From NCBI RefSeq assembly GCF_000495475.1, contig NZ_ASGZ01000064.1, forward strand, positions 1-64,000: a stretch of 64,000 bases of DNA, read 5' to 3'. Under the pieces are notes generated by a model. The model searched no databases and was not told the DNA's origin. It saw only the letters and a program-made list of their open reading frames with translations. This DNA is from Candidatus Halobonum tyrrellensis G22 (GTDB lineage Archaea > Halobacteriota > Halobacteria > Halobacteriales > Haloferacaceae). Of the stretch, positions 9,408 to 40,631 are shown in pieces; within the stretch, counting starts at the first letter, position 1; every line of letters begins with the position of its first letter. The translations under genes and the position numbers were made by a program.

Positions 9408-11072
9408 ATGAATCACGACAGACGCACGCTCTTACGAGCACTCGGAGCGGCGGGTATCGGCGCCGGCGCGTTCGCCGGGAACGCGGCCGCGGACGACGGC
9501 GGAACGGAGTCGGACGGCGGTGGACCAGGAGAGTCGGACGGCGGCGGAGCGAGCGAGTCCGGCGGCTCCGGAGCGGGGTCGTACTTCGACCCCAGCGACG
9601 GGTTCGCCGACGCCGCGCCGTGGCTCGACGACGACACGCCGGTGTACAGGGTGACGGAACCGACGCGGGAGGCGTTCGAGGAGGCGGTCAACCGGAGCGG
9701 TCCGCGGGTCGTCGTGTTCGAGACGAGCGGCACCGTCGACCTGGGCGCGGAGCGACTCACCATCGAGGAGGACGGACTCTACCTCGCGGGCCAGACGGCG
9801 CCCTCGCCGGGGGTCACGCTGATCCGCGGCGGGGTGTGGGTCGACGCGAACGACTGTCTCCTCCGGCACGTCCGGGTGCGCCCGGGCGACGCCGGCCAGG
9901 AGGAGGGGTGGATCCCCGACGGCATCCGGACCGCGGACGGCACCGAGAACAACGTGATCGACCACTGTTCGATCACGTGGGCGGTCGACGAGAACGGCTC
10001 GCCCGGCTACGACTCGGTGGACACCACCTACTCCAACTGCATCATGGCGGAGGGGCTGGCGGACTCGACCCACCCGAAGGGGACCCACTCGTACGGGACG
10101 CTCGTCGGCGACGGGTCGACCGGAGTCGCCCTGCTGGGGAACGTCTGGGCGCACAACATCGGGCGCAACCCCCGGCTGAAAGCCGAGACGGCCAGCGCCG
10201 TCGTGAACAACGTGATGTACCACTACGACGAGGCGACCAACGTCGACGACTCGACGGTGGCGAGCATCGTCGCCAACTCCTACCTCCGGGTCGACGACGG
10301 CGACTACAACATCGAGGGCGGCAGCGCCGAGGCGTACATCGCGGACAACGTCACCGACCCCGAGACGCCGATGGTCGGTCCCGACCTGATACAGGTCGAC
10401 GAGCCGCCGGTGTGGCCCGAGGGGCTTGAGCCGCTGTCGGCGGAGGCGGCCGAGGACCACGCGCTCGCGTACGCGGGCGCGCGGCCGGCCGACCGGACCG
10501 CCAACGACCGCCGGGTGATCAGCGACGTGCGGACGTTCGGCGGCGAGTGGATCGACAGCCAGGAGGCGGTCGGCGGCTACCCCGACCTCGCGGTCAACAC
10601 CCGCTCGCTGGACGTCCCCGAGTCGGGGCTCGCGGAGTGGCTCGAATCCCACGCGGTCCGGGTCGAGCAAGCGCAGGTGGAGTACTACCAGGTCGACTTC
10701 CTCGGGGGCGAGCCGATAGAGGAGTTGGGCGAGGACGGCCTGTACGCAGACCAGGACCGGCTGATGCGGTTCGCGCGCGGCACGCCCGCCGACGGCATCG
10801 TCGACCGCGGGTCGGCGTGGGCCAGCGCGGAGCTCCGGAACTGCCTCGACTACGGCCACATCGTCAGCCACGACGACGGCGCGTCGGCGCACGTCCACTT
10901 CACCGTCGCCGACGACTGCGAGGGGGTGGTCCTGTCGCTGGCTGTCCACTCCGCGCCCACCGACGAGTTCTCGGTGGACACCGTCGACCAGCAGGAACTC
11001 CTCTCCGCGACGACCGGCACGTACGGCCCGGGCGACCACTCGATCCGGGTCGACCTGCCGAGCGAGCACTGA
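9408..11072 (+). CDS. Tat-exported pectate lyase-like beta-helix protein
   Basis: This 554-residue protein begins with a twin-arginine signal (RRTLL at 5-9, then an Ala/Gly-rich hydrophobic stretch ending near residue 28). A Gly/Ser/Asp linker (about 30-62) leads to a pectate-lyase-type right-handed beta-helix (about 70-310): VVVFETSGTVDL, GVWVDANDCLLRHVRVRPGD, DGIRTADGTENNVIDHCSITWAVDE and IGRNPRLKAE. These are the spots for calcium-binding Asp and the catalytic Arg in family 1 type lyases. Residues about 425-554 form a separate domain that recurs at the end of the protein encoded at 38574. It should cut polygalacturonate outside the cell by beta-elimination. Confidence 0.88.
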   Translation: MNHDRRTLLRALGAAGIGAGAFAGNAAADDGGTESDGGGPGESDGGGASESGGSGAGSYFDPSDGFADAAPWLDDDTPVYRVTEPTREAFEEAVNRSGPRVVVFETSGTVDLGAERLTIEEDGLYLAGQTAPSPGVTLIRGGVWVDANDCLLRHVRVRPGDAGQEEGWIPDGIRTADGTENNVIDHCSITWAVDENGSPGYDSVDTTYSNCIMAEGLADSTHPKGTHSYGTLVGDGSTGVALLGNVWAHNIGRNPRLKAETASAVVNNVMYHYDEATNVDDSTVASIVANSYLRVDDGDYNIEGGSAEAYIADNVTDPETPMVGPDLIQVDEPPVWPEGLEPLSAEAAEDHALAYAGARPADRTANDRRVISDVRTFGGEWIDSQEAVGGYPDLAVNTRSLDVPESGLAEWLESHAVRVEQAQVEYYQVDFLGGEPIEELGEDGLYADQDRLMRFARGTPADGIVDRGSAWASAELRNCLDYGHIVSHDDGASAHVHFTVADDCEGVVLSLAVHSAPTDEFSVDTVDQQELLSATTGTYGPGDHSIRVDLPSEH

Positions 11073-36954: not shown

Positions 36955-38481
36955 ATGGCCGACAGTGACAGCCGCAGCCGGCGGGACGTACAGGCGGACG
37001 AAGCGAGCGCCGAGAGGACGTGGTCGGGCGACGTCGACGCGAACGGTCACGCGCTCGGGAACCTCGGGGCGGTCGAGGTCGACCGGGTGTACACGGCCGC
37101 CCGCGAGGCGGACGTGGTGGTGTGGAAGGACGACGACGGCACGTTCTACGCGGACGGCCGCGACGGCCCGGTCGCCGAGGGCGAGCGCGTGCTCCCCGTC
37201 GCGCAGGCGGCGGTCGACAGCCTCTCGGAGGGGCGGAGCTCGGCCGAGAAAGTACTCGTCGCCTCGCCCGGCGAGGTGACCGCGGCGGACGAACCGCTCG
37301 ACCTGCCGAGCTACACGACGCTCGACGCGCCGGTCACGCTCACCGGCACCGAGGGGGCGCCGCTCGTCGTGCAGGCGACCGGCGCCGAACACGTGACCGT
37401 CGAGTCGCTCTCCGTCGAGGGACCCGCCGGCGGGATGCGCTTTACGAGCTGTTCGAACCTCCGGATCGGCGACGTGAACCTGGTCGGCGTGACCGGCGAC
37501 GGCATCCGGATCGACGGCCGCGGGGACGCCCCGCGGACGACCGACGTACAGATCGACCAGGTGTACGTCGAGGGGAACGGCCACCACGGCGTCGAGACGT
37601 ACGGCGTCGACCGGATCCAGATCGACCAGGTGATCGGGGTCGACCCGGCGAGCTGTGTCGTCCTGCTCAACGACACGACCGACGCCACGGTCAACAGCGT
37701 CGTCGGGCGGGAGCCGGGCGTCCCGCCGGGCTACGCGACGTTCCGCGTGGCCAACGGCGCCCACGACGTGACCGTCGGGGAGGTGGTGAGCCGGGGCGGC
37801 GCCCGCGGTATCTTCGGCGTCTCGGAGTGTTACGACGTGACCATCGGCGAGGTGAACGTCGTCGGCGCGCGGGACCAGGGGATCTTGATCCAGAACTGCC
37901 AGAACTTCACCGTTGAGGGCGGCGTCGTCAAGAACACCGACGCCGACGCGGTCCGCGTCGACTCCCGGAACGACGGCGAGCAGATCCCCGCGGAGGGCGT
38001 CTCGATCAGCAACCTCCGCGTGGTCGACGACCGCGACGACCCCGCCCAGACGTGGGCCATCCTCGAAACCGGGCCCGCCTGTAACCACAACCGGTTCGTG
38101 AACAACGACGTCCGCGGCGGCGGCACCGACGGGCTGATCGGCGTCTTCTCGAACTCGACGGTCGTCCGCGGCAACGTCGGCGGCGGCTTCGCCGACGGGA
38201 CGACGACGCTGACGACGGGCGCGTCGCCGGCCGCCCGCGTCGAGGGGATATCCGAGTTCGACGACCGCACCATCCCCGGTAGCGTCGACGAACTGGAGGA
38301 GTTCGAGCAGTCGGCGTTCGAGACGCGCGCGGAGCCGACGGACGCGCCCGACGCGAGTTACGCCTGGGAGACGTTCTACGAGTGGGACGCCGACGCGGGC
38401 GCGTGGGACCTCGTCTTCGAGTGGCGGGTCGACCCCGGCACCGACCTCGAACTCGACTACGTGGTCGACAAGGTTCGCTGA
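36955..38481 (+). CDS. right-handed beta-helix protein without export signal (tandem paralogue 1)
   Basis: This 508-residue protein is a near copy of residues about 60-545 of the next gene product, sharing long blocks such as WSGDVDANGH, GYATFRVANG, EVVSRGGARGIFGVSECYDV and NHNRFVNND. Repeated short strands (VTIGEVNVVGA, NFTVEGGVVKN) indicate a parallel beta-helix, the fold of polysaccharide lyases and GH28 enzymes. Its start MADSDSRS aligns with MPPSDSRE of the paralogue, but the Tat segment between is missing, and an in-frame TGA at 36949-36951 rules out a longer start. It also ends before the paralogue's C-terminal domain. It should stay inside the cell unless exported otherwise. Confidence 0.85.
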   Translation: MADSDSRSRRDVQADEASAERTWSGDVDANGHALGNLGAVEVDRVYTAAREADVVVWKDDDGTFYADGRDGPVAEGERVLPVAQAAVDSLSEGRSSAEKVLVASPGEVTAADEPLDLPSYTTLDAPVTLTGTEGAPLVVQATGAEHVTVESLSVEGPAGGMRFTSCSNLRIGDVNLVGVTGDGIRIDGRGDAPRTTDVQIDQVYVEGNGHHGVETYGVDRIQIDQVIGVDPASCVVLLNDTTDATVNSVVGREPGVPPGYATFRVANGAHDVTVGEVVSRGGARGIFGVSECYDVTIGEVNVVGARDQGILIQNCQNFTVEGGVVKNTDADAVRVDSRNDGEQIPAEGVSISNLRVVDDRDDPAQTWAILETGPACNHNRFVNNDVRGGGTDGLIGVFSNSTVVRGNVGGGFADGTTTLTTGASPAARVEGISEFDDRTIPGSVDELEEFEQSAFETRAEPTDAPDASYAWETFYEWDADAGAWDLVFEWRVDPGTDLELDYVVDKVR

Positions 38482-38573: not shown

Positions 38574-40631
38574 ATGCCACCAAGCGACAGCCGCGAGCCG
38601 CGGAGCGGACGCGACGGCGACGACCGGTCGGGACTCACGCGCCGGTCGACGCTGGCGTTGCTCGGCGCCGCCGGGTTAGCGAGCGGGCGAGTGTCCGGCG
38701 CGCCCGGGACCGCCGAGGCGAACGGGACCACGACCGACGACGGCGCGACCGGGAACGTCGAGACGACGTGGAGCGGCGACGTCGACGCGAACGGTCACGA
38801 CCTGTGGGACCTCGGCGCCGTCGAGGCGGACCGCGTGTACGCGTCCGCACGGGACGCCGACGTAGTGGTCTGGAGCGACGTCGAGGGGACGTTCTACGCT
38901 GACGGCCGGGACGGCCCGGTCGCCAGCGGCTCAGACCCCATCGCCGTGATCCAGGCGGCGGTCGACAGCCTCTCGGAGGGGCGGACCTCGAACGAGCGGG
39001 TGCTGGTCGCCTCGCCCGCGACGGTCGGGCAGGACGCCGACTTCCCGATTCAGCTCCCGAGTTACACGACGCTCGACGTACCCGCGGGCATCCACGTCGA
39101 GGGGGAACCCGACGAGGAGAGCGCGGTGGTGGTCCGGGCGACGGACGCCGACTCGGTCGAGCTACCCAGCCTCACCGTCACCGGCTACCCCAACTTCTGC
39201 GTGTGGATCCAGAGCTGTTCGAACGTCCGCCTCGGCGACGTCTCGATCCGACACGCCGAGGACGCGCTGTCGAACACCGTAGTCAGGATCGACGACTTCG
39301 GCGAGACCGGGCGGACGACCGACGTGCAGGTCGACCAAGTGTACGTCGAGGAGGGCGGCCACCACGCGTTCGAGACGTACGGCGTCGACCGGATCCAAGT
39401 CGACCAGGTGACCGGCGTCAACCCCGACGGCTGTGTCGTCCTGCTCAACGACACGACCGACGCGACGGTCAACAGCGTCGTCGGGCGCGAACCCGGGGTT
39501 CCCGCGGGCTACGCGACGTTCCGCGTGGCCAACGGCACACACGACGTGACGGTCGGCGAGGTGGTGAGCCGGGGCGGCGCCCGCGGTATCTTCGGCGTCT
39601 CGGAGTGTTACGACGTGACCATCGGCGAGGTGAACGTCGTCGGCGCCGAGAACGGCGTTCTCGTCCAGAACTGCCGGAACTTCGCCATCGAGGGCGGCGT
39701 CGTCAAGAACTCCGGCGGCGACGGCGTCCGGGTCGACACGCGCGACGACGGCGAGCAGATCCCCGCGGAGGGCGTCTCGATCAGCAACCTCCGCGTGACC
39801 GACGACCGCGAGGAGCCACAGCAGGCGTACGGCATCCGCGAGACCGGCCCCCGCACGAACCACAACCGGTTCGTGAACAACGACCTCCGCGGCGCGGGGA
39901 CGGAAGCCGCCCTCGCGGTGTTCGCCGACTCGACGGTCGTCCGCGACAACGTCGGCGCGGGCGTCGCCGACGGGAGCGTGACGCTCCGCCCCGGTCGGTC
40001 GCCCGCCGCGCGGGTCGCGGGCGTGAGCGACCTGCCGGGGGTCTCGCCGGAGGTCCGCGCGGAACCCGTCGACGCGCCCGACGCGAACTACGCGTGGGAC
40101 CACTACTTCGCGTGGGACGGCGACGCGGGCGCGTGGGACCTCCACTTCGAGTGGCGGACCGACCCCGGCGCGCCGGTCGAGGTGTCGTACGTCGTCGACC
40201 GGAGCGACGCGGGCGCGCCCGGGACGCTGGAGGTGCCCGCGCGGTTCTACCAGGTGGACTTCGTGGCGGGCGAACCCATCGAGGAACTCGGCGAGGAGGG
40301 GCTGTACGCCGAGCAGGACCGGCTGATGCGGTTCGCGTTCGGGTCGGTCGAGGAGGGCATCACGGAGAAGGACACCGCGTGGCCGAGCGCGGAACTACGG
40401 GACTGTCTCGACTACGGTCACATCCGCGAACACGACGACGGCACCGCCTCGGTCACGTTCACCGTCGCCGACGACTGCGAGGAGGTGACGCTCTCGCTCG
40501 CCACCTACTCGCTGCCCGGCGAGGAGTTCTCGGCGGACACCGCCGACGAACAGGAACTCCTCGGGGCGACGACCGAGACGTACGGACCGGGCGAGCACAC
40601 CATCTCCCTCGACCTGCCGAGCGGGGAGTGA
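38574..40631 (+). CDS. Tat-exported beta-helix protein with shared C-terminal domain (tandem paralogue 2)
   Basis: This 685-residue protein starts MPPSDSREPR and has a twin-arginine signal (LTRRSTLALLGAAGLASG, about 21-38). An acidic linker leads to a right-handed beta-helix (about 60-530) nearly identical in blocks to the upstream paralogue, then a domain (about 557-685, FYQVDFVAGEPIEELGEEGL to the end) that also closes the pectate lyase at 9408. Two cysteines in LRDCLDYGHI and VADDCEEV are common to both copies of that domain. The exact polysaccharide is unknown; the locus suggests pectin or rhamnogalacturonan. No catalytic motif is clear to me. Confidence 0.88.
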   Translation: MPPSDSREPRSGRDGDDRSGLTRRSTLALLGAAGLASGRVSGAPGTAEANGTTTDDGATGNVETTWSGDVDANGHDLWDLGAVEADRVYASARDADVVVWSDVEGTFYADGRDGPVASGSDPIAVIQAAVDSLSEGRTSNERVLVASPATVGQDADFPIQLPSYTTLDVPAGIHVEGEPDEESAVVVRATDADSVELPSLTVTGYPNFCVWIQSCSNVRLGDVSIRHAEDALSNTVVRIDDFGETGRTTDVQVDQVYVEEGGHHAFETYGVDRIQVDQVTGVNPDGCVVLLNDTTDATVNSVVGREPGVPAGYATFRVANGTHDVTVGEVVSRGGARGIFGVSECYDVTIGEVNVVGAENGVLVQNCRNFAIEGGVVKNSGGDGVRVDTRDDGEQIPAEGVSISNLRVTDDREEPQQAYGIRETGPRTNHNRFVNNDLRGAGTEAALAVFADSTVVRDNVGAGVADGSVTLRPGRSPAARVAGVSDLPGVSPEVRAEPVDAPDANYAWDHYFAWDGDAGAWDLHFEWRTDPGAPVEVSYVVDRSDAGAPGTLEVPARFYQVDFVAGEPIEELGEEGLYAEQDRLMRFAFGSVEEGITEKDTAWPSAELRDCLDYGHIREHDDGTASVTFTVADDCEEVTLSLATYSLPGEEFSADTADEQELLGATTETYGPGEHTISLDLPSGE

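Follow-up and report, generated by a model that had tools for sequence, protein, structure and literature searches.

The window analysed here is a stretch of 64,000 nucleotides from the haloarchaeon Candidatus Halobonum tyrrellensis G22 (assembly GCF_000495475.1, contig NZ_ASGZ01000064.1, positions 1 to 64,000 of the forward strand). Two exported beta-helix proteins encoded in it have closely similar C-terminal segments. Positions 10680-11072 correspond to residues 425-554 and the stop codon of a 554-residue reading frame (9408-11072), and the partner segment is residues 557-685 of a 685-residue protein (38574-40631). The two segments are identical at 88 of 127 residues (69%, E 7e-66); for the rest of the two proteins there is no real alignment, the next segment in the whole-protein comparison having E 0.22. 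An earlier sequence-only reading had described homologous ends on two proteins with unrelated helix domains, and both descriptions hold. Its coordinates are right and the motifs it quoted (YYQVDF/FYQVDF, GEPIEELGE, LYAxQDRLMRF, CLDYGHI and VADDCE) are all found in the segments. The pectate lyase matches NCBIfam PelZ (NF041900) over residues 88-272 (E 2.2e-67, with 227.7 bits against a curated cut-off of 840), and the second protein gives weak Beta_helix and GH28 profile matches only.

The second protein has an adjoining paralogue which is 65% identical to its helix and serves as a natural control (Table 1). The paralogue hides no signal peptide, since its frame opens just one codon before the ATG. 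The tandem arrangement, 36955-38481 followed by 38574-40631, suggests cytoplasmic and exported versions of one beta-helix protein.

Table 1. Features of the window that carry, or serve as controls for, the shared C-terminal module
Feature	Positions	Strand	Basis
PelZ-like pectate lyase with module, 554 aa	9408..11072	+	ORF; NCBIfam NF041900 PelZ
Tat-type signal peptide region, DRRTLLRALGAAG...AAAD, without lipobox	9408..9494	+	pattern scan and reading
Module copy 1; profile core 10686-11060	10680..11069	+	69% identity to copy 2; 33 genomic copies
Copy 1 Cys-Cys span, codons 10842-10844 and 10917-10919, presumed disulfide	10842..10919	+	codons checked; all-or-none pairing
Natural control: adjoining paralogue without signal peptide or module	36955..38481	+	identity; frame check
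Exported beta-helix protein with module, 685 aa	38574..40631	+	translation; weak Beta_helix/GH28 profile matches
Tat-type signal region, LTRRSTLALLGAAGLASG, without lipobox	38574..38702	+	pattern scan and reading
Module copy 2, predicted beta-sandwich, pLDDT 83.8, pTM 0.79	40242..40628	+	alignment and model
Copy 2 Cys-Cys span, codons 40404-40406 and 40476-40478	40404..40478	+	codons checked; all-or-none pairing

The segment, below called the module, is about 125 residues long. Whether it is an integral part of an already named domain was checked, and no Pfam or NCBIfam family is significant over it when single modules and sets of 32 and 24 members are scanned, the matches being scattered and sub-threshold. 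SLH (PF00395) is absent from the Pfam matches of the 32 and 24 members at E <= 10, as is Dockerin type I (PF00404) from their matches, and Cohesin (PF00963) stays below its cut-off (best E 0.045 in one of the 32 and 0.11 in two of the 24). The two cysteines, whose recurrence had been pointed out before, have their codons in both window copies. In 84 aligned module rows they occur together in 61, are both missing from 23 and never occur singly (the rows come from 18 genomes, a MAG record and an IMG/VR contig, with the same gene present twice for L061/L143 and L062/L155). Such all-or-none occurrence points to a disulfide.

An AlphaFold2 model built from six sequences is a beta-sandwich with two short helices (pLDDT 83.8, pTM 0.79). 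Its best matches in the PDB are generic Ig-like folds with Z no higher than 6.3; among the matches listed there is no specific relative, and among the 50 listed no cohesin. A PDB sequence search with a first module alignment returned one chain at E 0.0044, taken as a chance match in view of its domain E of 1.5, and a search with a second alignment returned none. The segment is a new, unnamed domain that is portable; its predicted structure makes it an Ig-like beta-sandwich, in most copies with one presumed disulfide.

The genome (3.68 Mb in 72 contigs, 99.6% complete) holds 33 copies of the module at E <= 9e-17 in a single-sequence search, and a profile search recovers the same 33, so the similarity of the two window segments is not due to chance. 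Twenty-four copies lie within 70 residues of the C-terminus, six are near the N-terminus and three are internal. The glycosidases among the carriers, as named by Pfam, are GH15, two GH3, two GH2, GH43, GH10 and an arabinofuranosidase-type enzyme (sub-threshold). PhoD, a 5′-nucleotidase, a phytase-like protein, S9 and M14 peptidases and an InhA-like MAM protein also occur, and further carriers have copper-binding (sub-threshold), VWA, FG-GAP (three proteins), NosD/beta-helix, DUF7282 and 3-keto-disaccharide hydrolase domains. In one carrier the module follows a choice-of-anchor I domain (E 7.2e-114). The carriers differ in substrate and share export, which makes export their common factor. That the domain is portable, as had been supposed, is borne out by the number of copies in one genome, their occurrence at either end or internally, and a clean insertion into the arabinofuranosidase-type enzyme. 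Its assignment to secreted polysaccharide enzymes was right as to secretion (30 of 33) and too narrow as to the enzymes, given the PhoD, 5′-nucleotidase, M14, copper-binding, VWA, FG-GAP and NosD-type carriers. Two module genes are degenerate, L048:5554-8430 without its 5′ part and L056:1806-3191 with a truncated module (both on minus strands); module copies are thus also lost. The carrier L059 looks frame-broken in its FG-GAP part.

The known means of retaining exported proteins at the haloarchaeal surface are a lipid, a membrane tail and an archaeosortase-processed tail. Of the 30 own carriers with an export signal, 22 are of Tat type by a pattern scan, and reading adds three more (L043, L044 and L059) and five of Sec type. 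The three carriers lacking a signal all lack a 5′ end: L048 is 5′-truncated, L050 lies at a contig end and L056 is a broken copy. None of the 22 Tat-scored carriers has a lipobox, compared with 14 of 17 module-less Tat-pattern proteins from the same stretches (Fisher 4.5e-8, in stretches that were chosen around modules). The three module-less proteins lacking a lipobox look like false positives of the pattern, one being a membrane protein and two cytoplasmic-looking. Thirteen Tat-pattern proteins, five with a lipobox (one of them common to the module-stretch set), come from an independent, module-free sample of 0.8 Mb. Four of the other eight look really exported; one of these four has a PGF tail and one a dockerin, and at least two Tat-pattern proteins in the sample have neither a lipobox nor a visible anchor. 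The partition between module and lipobox among proteins predicted to be Tat-exported is strong, though not complete.

Among the own carriers none ends in a hydrophobic tail (last 40 residues), and in the 22 that are Tat-scored no PGF motif of the PGF-CTERM kind (TIGR04126) occurs near the end. In two carriers from other genomes, L144 and L176, the module is followed by a membrane tail, so in those proteins it is not the sole anchor. The idea that the module replaces PGF-CTERM genome-wide was dropped, there being 11 PGF-CTERM proteins here and 1-16 in 29 relatives.

Some copies in unrelated genes are nearly identical in their DNA. The identity is 95% between the modules of the DUF7282 protein and the 5′-nucleotidase, 92% between those of GH15 and GH2 carriers, 90% between those of a GH2 carrier and the window's beta-helix protein and 89% between those of a GH3 carrier and a TTHB210-like protein. 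The flanks of the closest copies fall to background at once, except for about 30 bp upstream in the DUF7282/5′-nucleotidase pair. In the own genome these last two are separate proteins (L050 and L052), and in genome G050 a DUF7282-like region, a module and a 5′-nucleotidase-like region form, by eye, one chain (L154/L156). For the 16 closest pairs dN/dS is 0.08-0.34, which means that selection keeps the protein (the median over all pairs, at high divergence, is 0.60). Most own copies cluster in two groups, of 18 and of 10, on a tree of 81 modules, the second group also holding a module from another genus of the family. The nearest relatives of the two module halves differ in 23 of 32 copies, a hint of recombination among copies.

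In the arabinofuranosidase-type carrier L032 one loop contains the whole module, at a site occupied by about eight residues in seven relatives from other genomes (identity in the query region up to 75%). Its GH51-type relatives in other genomes are exported with neither module nor lipobox, so such enzymes work unanchored elsewhere. Another module seems to lie inside a protein that by eye is multicopper-oxidase-like (L159:1524-6290, genome G362), for which only one partial relative was found.

Of 392 genomes of the order, 38 (from 12 of 95 genera) have the module, as do 38 of 391 genomes of a class sample and five of 334 genomes of a phylum sample; these five, the own genome included, all belong to the window's order. 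The next highest copy numbers after the own genome are 10-12, in three congeneric genomes, and six, in a single genome. Full counts apply to 14 genomes; in the order and class samples, where up to 11 candidates per genome were scored, the copy numbers of rich genomes are lower bounds. A plasmid search located the module on one Halococcus plasmid. The sole match of a virus search, L122, is a module gene on IMG/VR contig UViG_3300010222_000170, classed as viral; it encodes a small exported protein with a Thr/Pro-rich linker and its module groups with Halococcus copies on the tree.

In six of 18 genomes a dockerin search finds genes for dockerin proteins immediately next to module genes. The domain that precedes the module in those carriers falls short of Pfam Cohesin (at best 22.8 bits against a cut-off of 24.1, E 1.1e-4, in one of 10 domains). 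Its model (pLDDT 89.7) nevertheless has a cohesin fold (Foldseek E 7.8e-9, probability 1.00; Z 15.3 and rmsd 2.3 over 127 residues against 6kge), and its top structural matches are cohesins, an Archaeoglobus cohesin among them. A profile search recovers this cohesin-fold domain from 134 of the order's 392 genomes, often beside dockerin genes, and haloarchaeal dockerins may dock rather than bind substrate. Three-cohesin proteins with dockerin neighbours are present in Halobacteriales. In a genome whose name is inferred to be Halomicroarcula rubra, a row of genes encodes a dockerin protein, two successive proteins each with two cohesins and a dockerin, and a protein with three cohesins and the module. 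The window's genome has no match to Pfam Dockerin_1 at E 0.001. The notion that it lacks a cohesin-dockerin system was dropped when a haloarchaeal dockerin profile found one pair, in overlapping genes on contig C68, L215:462-1379 (cohesin with a membrane tail) and L215:1300-4155 (cohesin-dockerin, Tat). This pair is without a module.

How dockerin-less cohesin proteins end was surveyed in 47 non-redundant cases: the module is the ending of 14 and a hydrophobic or PGF tail that of 25, while no protein has both and eight have neither. For the 40 with a dockerin gene within 600 bp the respective numbers are 13, 21, none and six. The survey leaves out duplicates, reading frames with an open end, cohesin proteins with a dockerin of their own and L168 (module, dockerin neighbour), whose divergent pre-module domain is below threshold; L161, scored as neither, is a frame-broken module protein. 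The 47 proteins are related and not a random draw, and some were fetched for carrying the module, so a Fisher value on these counts gives no fair probability, but the zero for both and a switch within one genus hold regardless of that choice. The switch concerns the three-cohesin scaffoldin of H. rubra, which is 82% identical to that of a second species of the genus up to residue 720. Thereafter H. rubra has the module (726-852) and the second species a CARDB-like stretch and an unrelated repeat; the adjoining cohesin-dockerin genes of the two are about 84% identical.

This repeat is common to four of the eight proteins with neither ending. It is tandem, with a PFPDGTxPxDIxTREEIA-like motif, at L241:2478-3359, L242:1873-3267, L243:1666-3480 and L259:2866-3432 (all on minus strands), and is perhaps a second unnamed anchor. 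By eye the motif looked SLH-like; Pfam and PDB searches yielded no convincing match for the repeat and gave that identification no support, and it was rejected.

The module is read here as interchangeable with other putative anchors on cohesin proteins. Anchoring is its best-supported function because it stands where related cohesin proteins have membrane tails. Further support comes from the lack of lipoboxes and membrane tails in the own carriers, the choice-of-anchor I carrier, the export common to carriers of differing substrate, the paralogue devoid of signal and module, the cohesin fold of the neighbouring domain and the low dN/dS of the closest copies. Most likely, and with reasonable probability, it keeps exported proteins on the surface of the haloarchaeal cell with no need of a membrane anchor, surface retention being what we infer from these observations. 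The suggestion in the sequence-only reading that it is a surface or anchoring domain is probable to that degree. The module would bind an envelope component non-covalently, for which the S-layer glycoprotein or a surface glycan are candidates. In several other haloarchaea it would be the C-terminal anchor of cohesin scaffoldins, holding dockerin proteins encoded by the next gene. In the window's genome it would have multiplied to 33 copies, presumably by duplication of little more than module DNA, and been joined directly to enzymes. With the module on the enzymes themselves, the cohesin-dockerin step would there be unnecessary. The six own copies of 33 near the N-terminus and the three that are internal count against an anchor, in that they are tolerated by this explanation but not predicted by it. 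Also against it are the membrane tails behind the module in L144 and L176, the GH51-type relatives that are exported with neither module nor lipobox, the seemingly unanchored Tat-pattern proteins of the independent sample, the non-random make-up of the 47 proteins, the generic fold matches of the module and the ordinary number of PGF-CTERM proteins. A wider proposal is more tentative: haloarchaea may have cellulosome-like systems with an exchangeable anchor (membrane tail, repeat or module), and in the window's lineage the module may have become mobile from gene to gene, and even into the catalytic region of an enzyme, displaying most non-lipidated Tat proteins without helix, lipid or sortase.

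A beta-sandwich carried by many enzymes of one genome, and belonging to cohesin-dockerin gene clusters in others, could alternatively be a docking domain which, dockerin-like, gathers exported enzymes onto a scaffold or each other and not onto the envelope; a GH51-type relative elsewhere even has, by eye, a C-terminal dockerin-like repeat pair. In the clusters, however, the module belongs to the cohesin protein, in the position of the membrane tail, rather than to the docked proteins. The own genome, whose one cohesin-dockerin pair lacks the module, yielded no scaffold with a matching partner, and docking is an unlikely explanation. It is quite unlikely that the module is a carbohydrate-binding module (CBM) keeping each enzyme on its polysaccharide substrate, for near-identical copies are on enzymes with different substrates (GH15/GH2, 92%; GH3/TTHB210-like, 89%, DNA), phosphatases, a nucleotidase, a peptidase and a copper protein are also carriers, and the Pfam matches of 56 members include no CBM family. 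What it would explain is a beta-sandwich placed behind the catalytic domains of many glycosidases and lyases. Were such a domain to bind the cell's own surface glycan, the explanation would merge with anchoring.

Occurrence on exported proteins only, at either end or internally, would also suit a domain without a ligand that aids folding, solubility or export passage of non-lipidated exported proteins. This leaves the alternation with membrane tails on cohesin proteins unexplained, and the GH51-type carrier has relatives that are exported although they lack the module, making such a role very unlikely. That the module is a selfish or neutral DNA segment inserting in frame into genes is highly improbable, despite the 33 copies, the DNA identity of up to 95% between unrelated genes with flanks at background, the insertion into an enzyme domain and the discordant halves in 23 of 32 copies. 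Genes with an intact 5′ end carry the module only behind an export signal (30 of 33), dN/dS is below 1 in the closest pairs, the cysteine pair is kept or lost as a unit and the same domain is kept in other families of the order. Retention at the cell surface is the reading preferred here.

If a common unnamed domain does stand in for the known anchors, it would change which haloarchaeal proteins count as cell-bound, and an anchor of this kind would be a convenient tag for displaying proteins on the surface at high salt. The module is also an example of a protein domain that has spread within a single archaeal genome and left nearly identical copies in unrelated genes. The cohesin evidence gives haloarchaeal dockerins likely partners, their binding being predicted from adjacent genes and a cohesin-fold model. 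In the available parts of two papers the dockerins of haloarchaeal enzymes are treated as substrate-binding (PMC10963439, PMC13260240), and in the text available of the former the word cohesin occurs 0 times. Dockerin and cohesin are described in ANME archaea by a paper which, in the part available, states that multi-cohesin scaffoldins had not been found in archaea by studies preceding its own description of them in ANME (PMC9012536). No haloarchaeon was enriched on pectin according to the accessible portion of another (PMC9726719), and what is available of PMC10301127 is general background. The open-licence literature yielded no paper on haloarchaeal scaffoldins or on the module, which is weak evidence of absence from print.

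In relation to known systems, the module differs from haloarchaeal lipoproteins in that the lipobox cysteine after the h-region is absent from the 22 Tat-scored carriers. Like CBMs it is a predicted beta-sandwich appended to glycosidases, but it is tied neither to a substrate nor to carbohydrate enzymes. Cohesin (PF00963) is a beta-sandwich of similar size that adjoins it in the same chain; the module, though, has three weak Pfam matches to it in 56 members, while its true cohesin neighbour matches cohesins at once in a fold search. With Dockerin type I (PF00404) it shares portability on haloarchaeal polysaccharide enzymes and other exported proteins, but dockerin is a short calcium-binding repeat pair and the module a predicted beta-sandwich on the cohesin partner. 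PGF-CTERM, processed by archaeosortase A, and other membrane tails terminate dockerin-less cohesin proteins just as the module does; in contrast to these the module is a folded domain of 125 residues which has no hydrophobic tail and can be N-terminal or internal. Bacterial anchoring scaffoldins have a cohesin-linker-SLH architecture. Though the SLH domain is helical and the module a predicted beta-sandwich without an SLH profile match in 56 members, the module resembles it in being C-terminal on cohesin proteins, behind Thr/Pro/Glu-rich linkers and beside dockerin genes, and in being also fused directly to exported enzymes.
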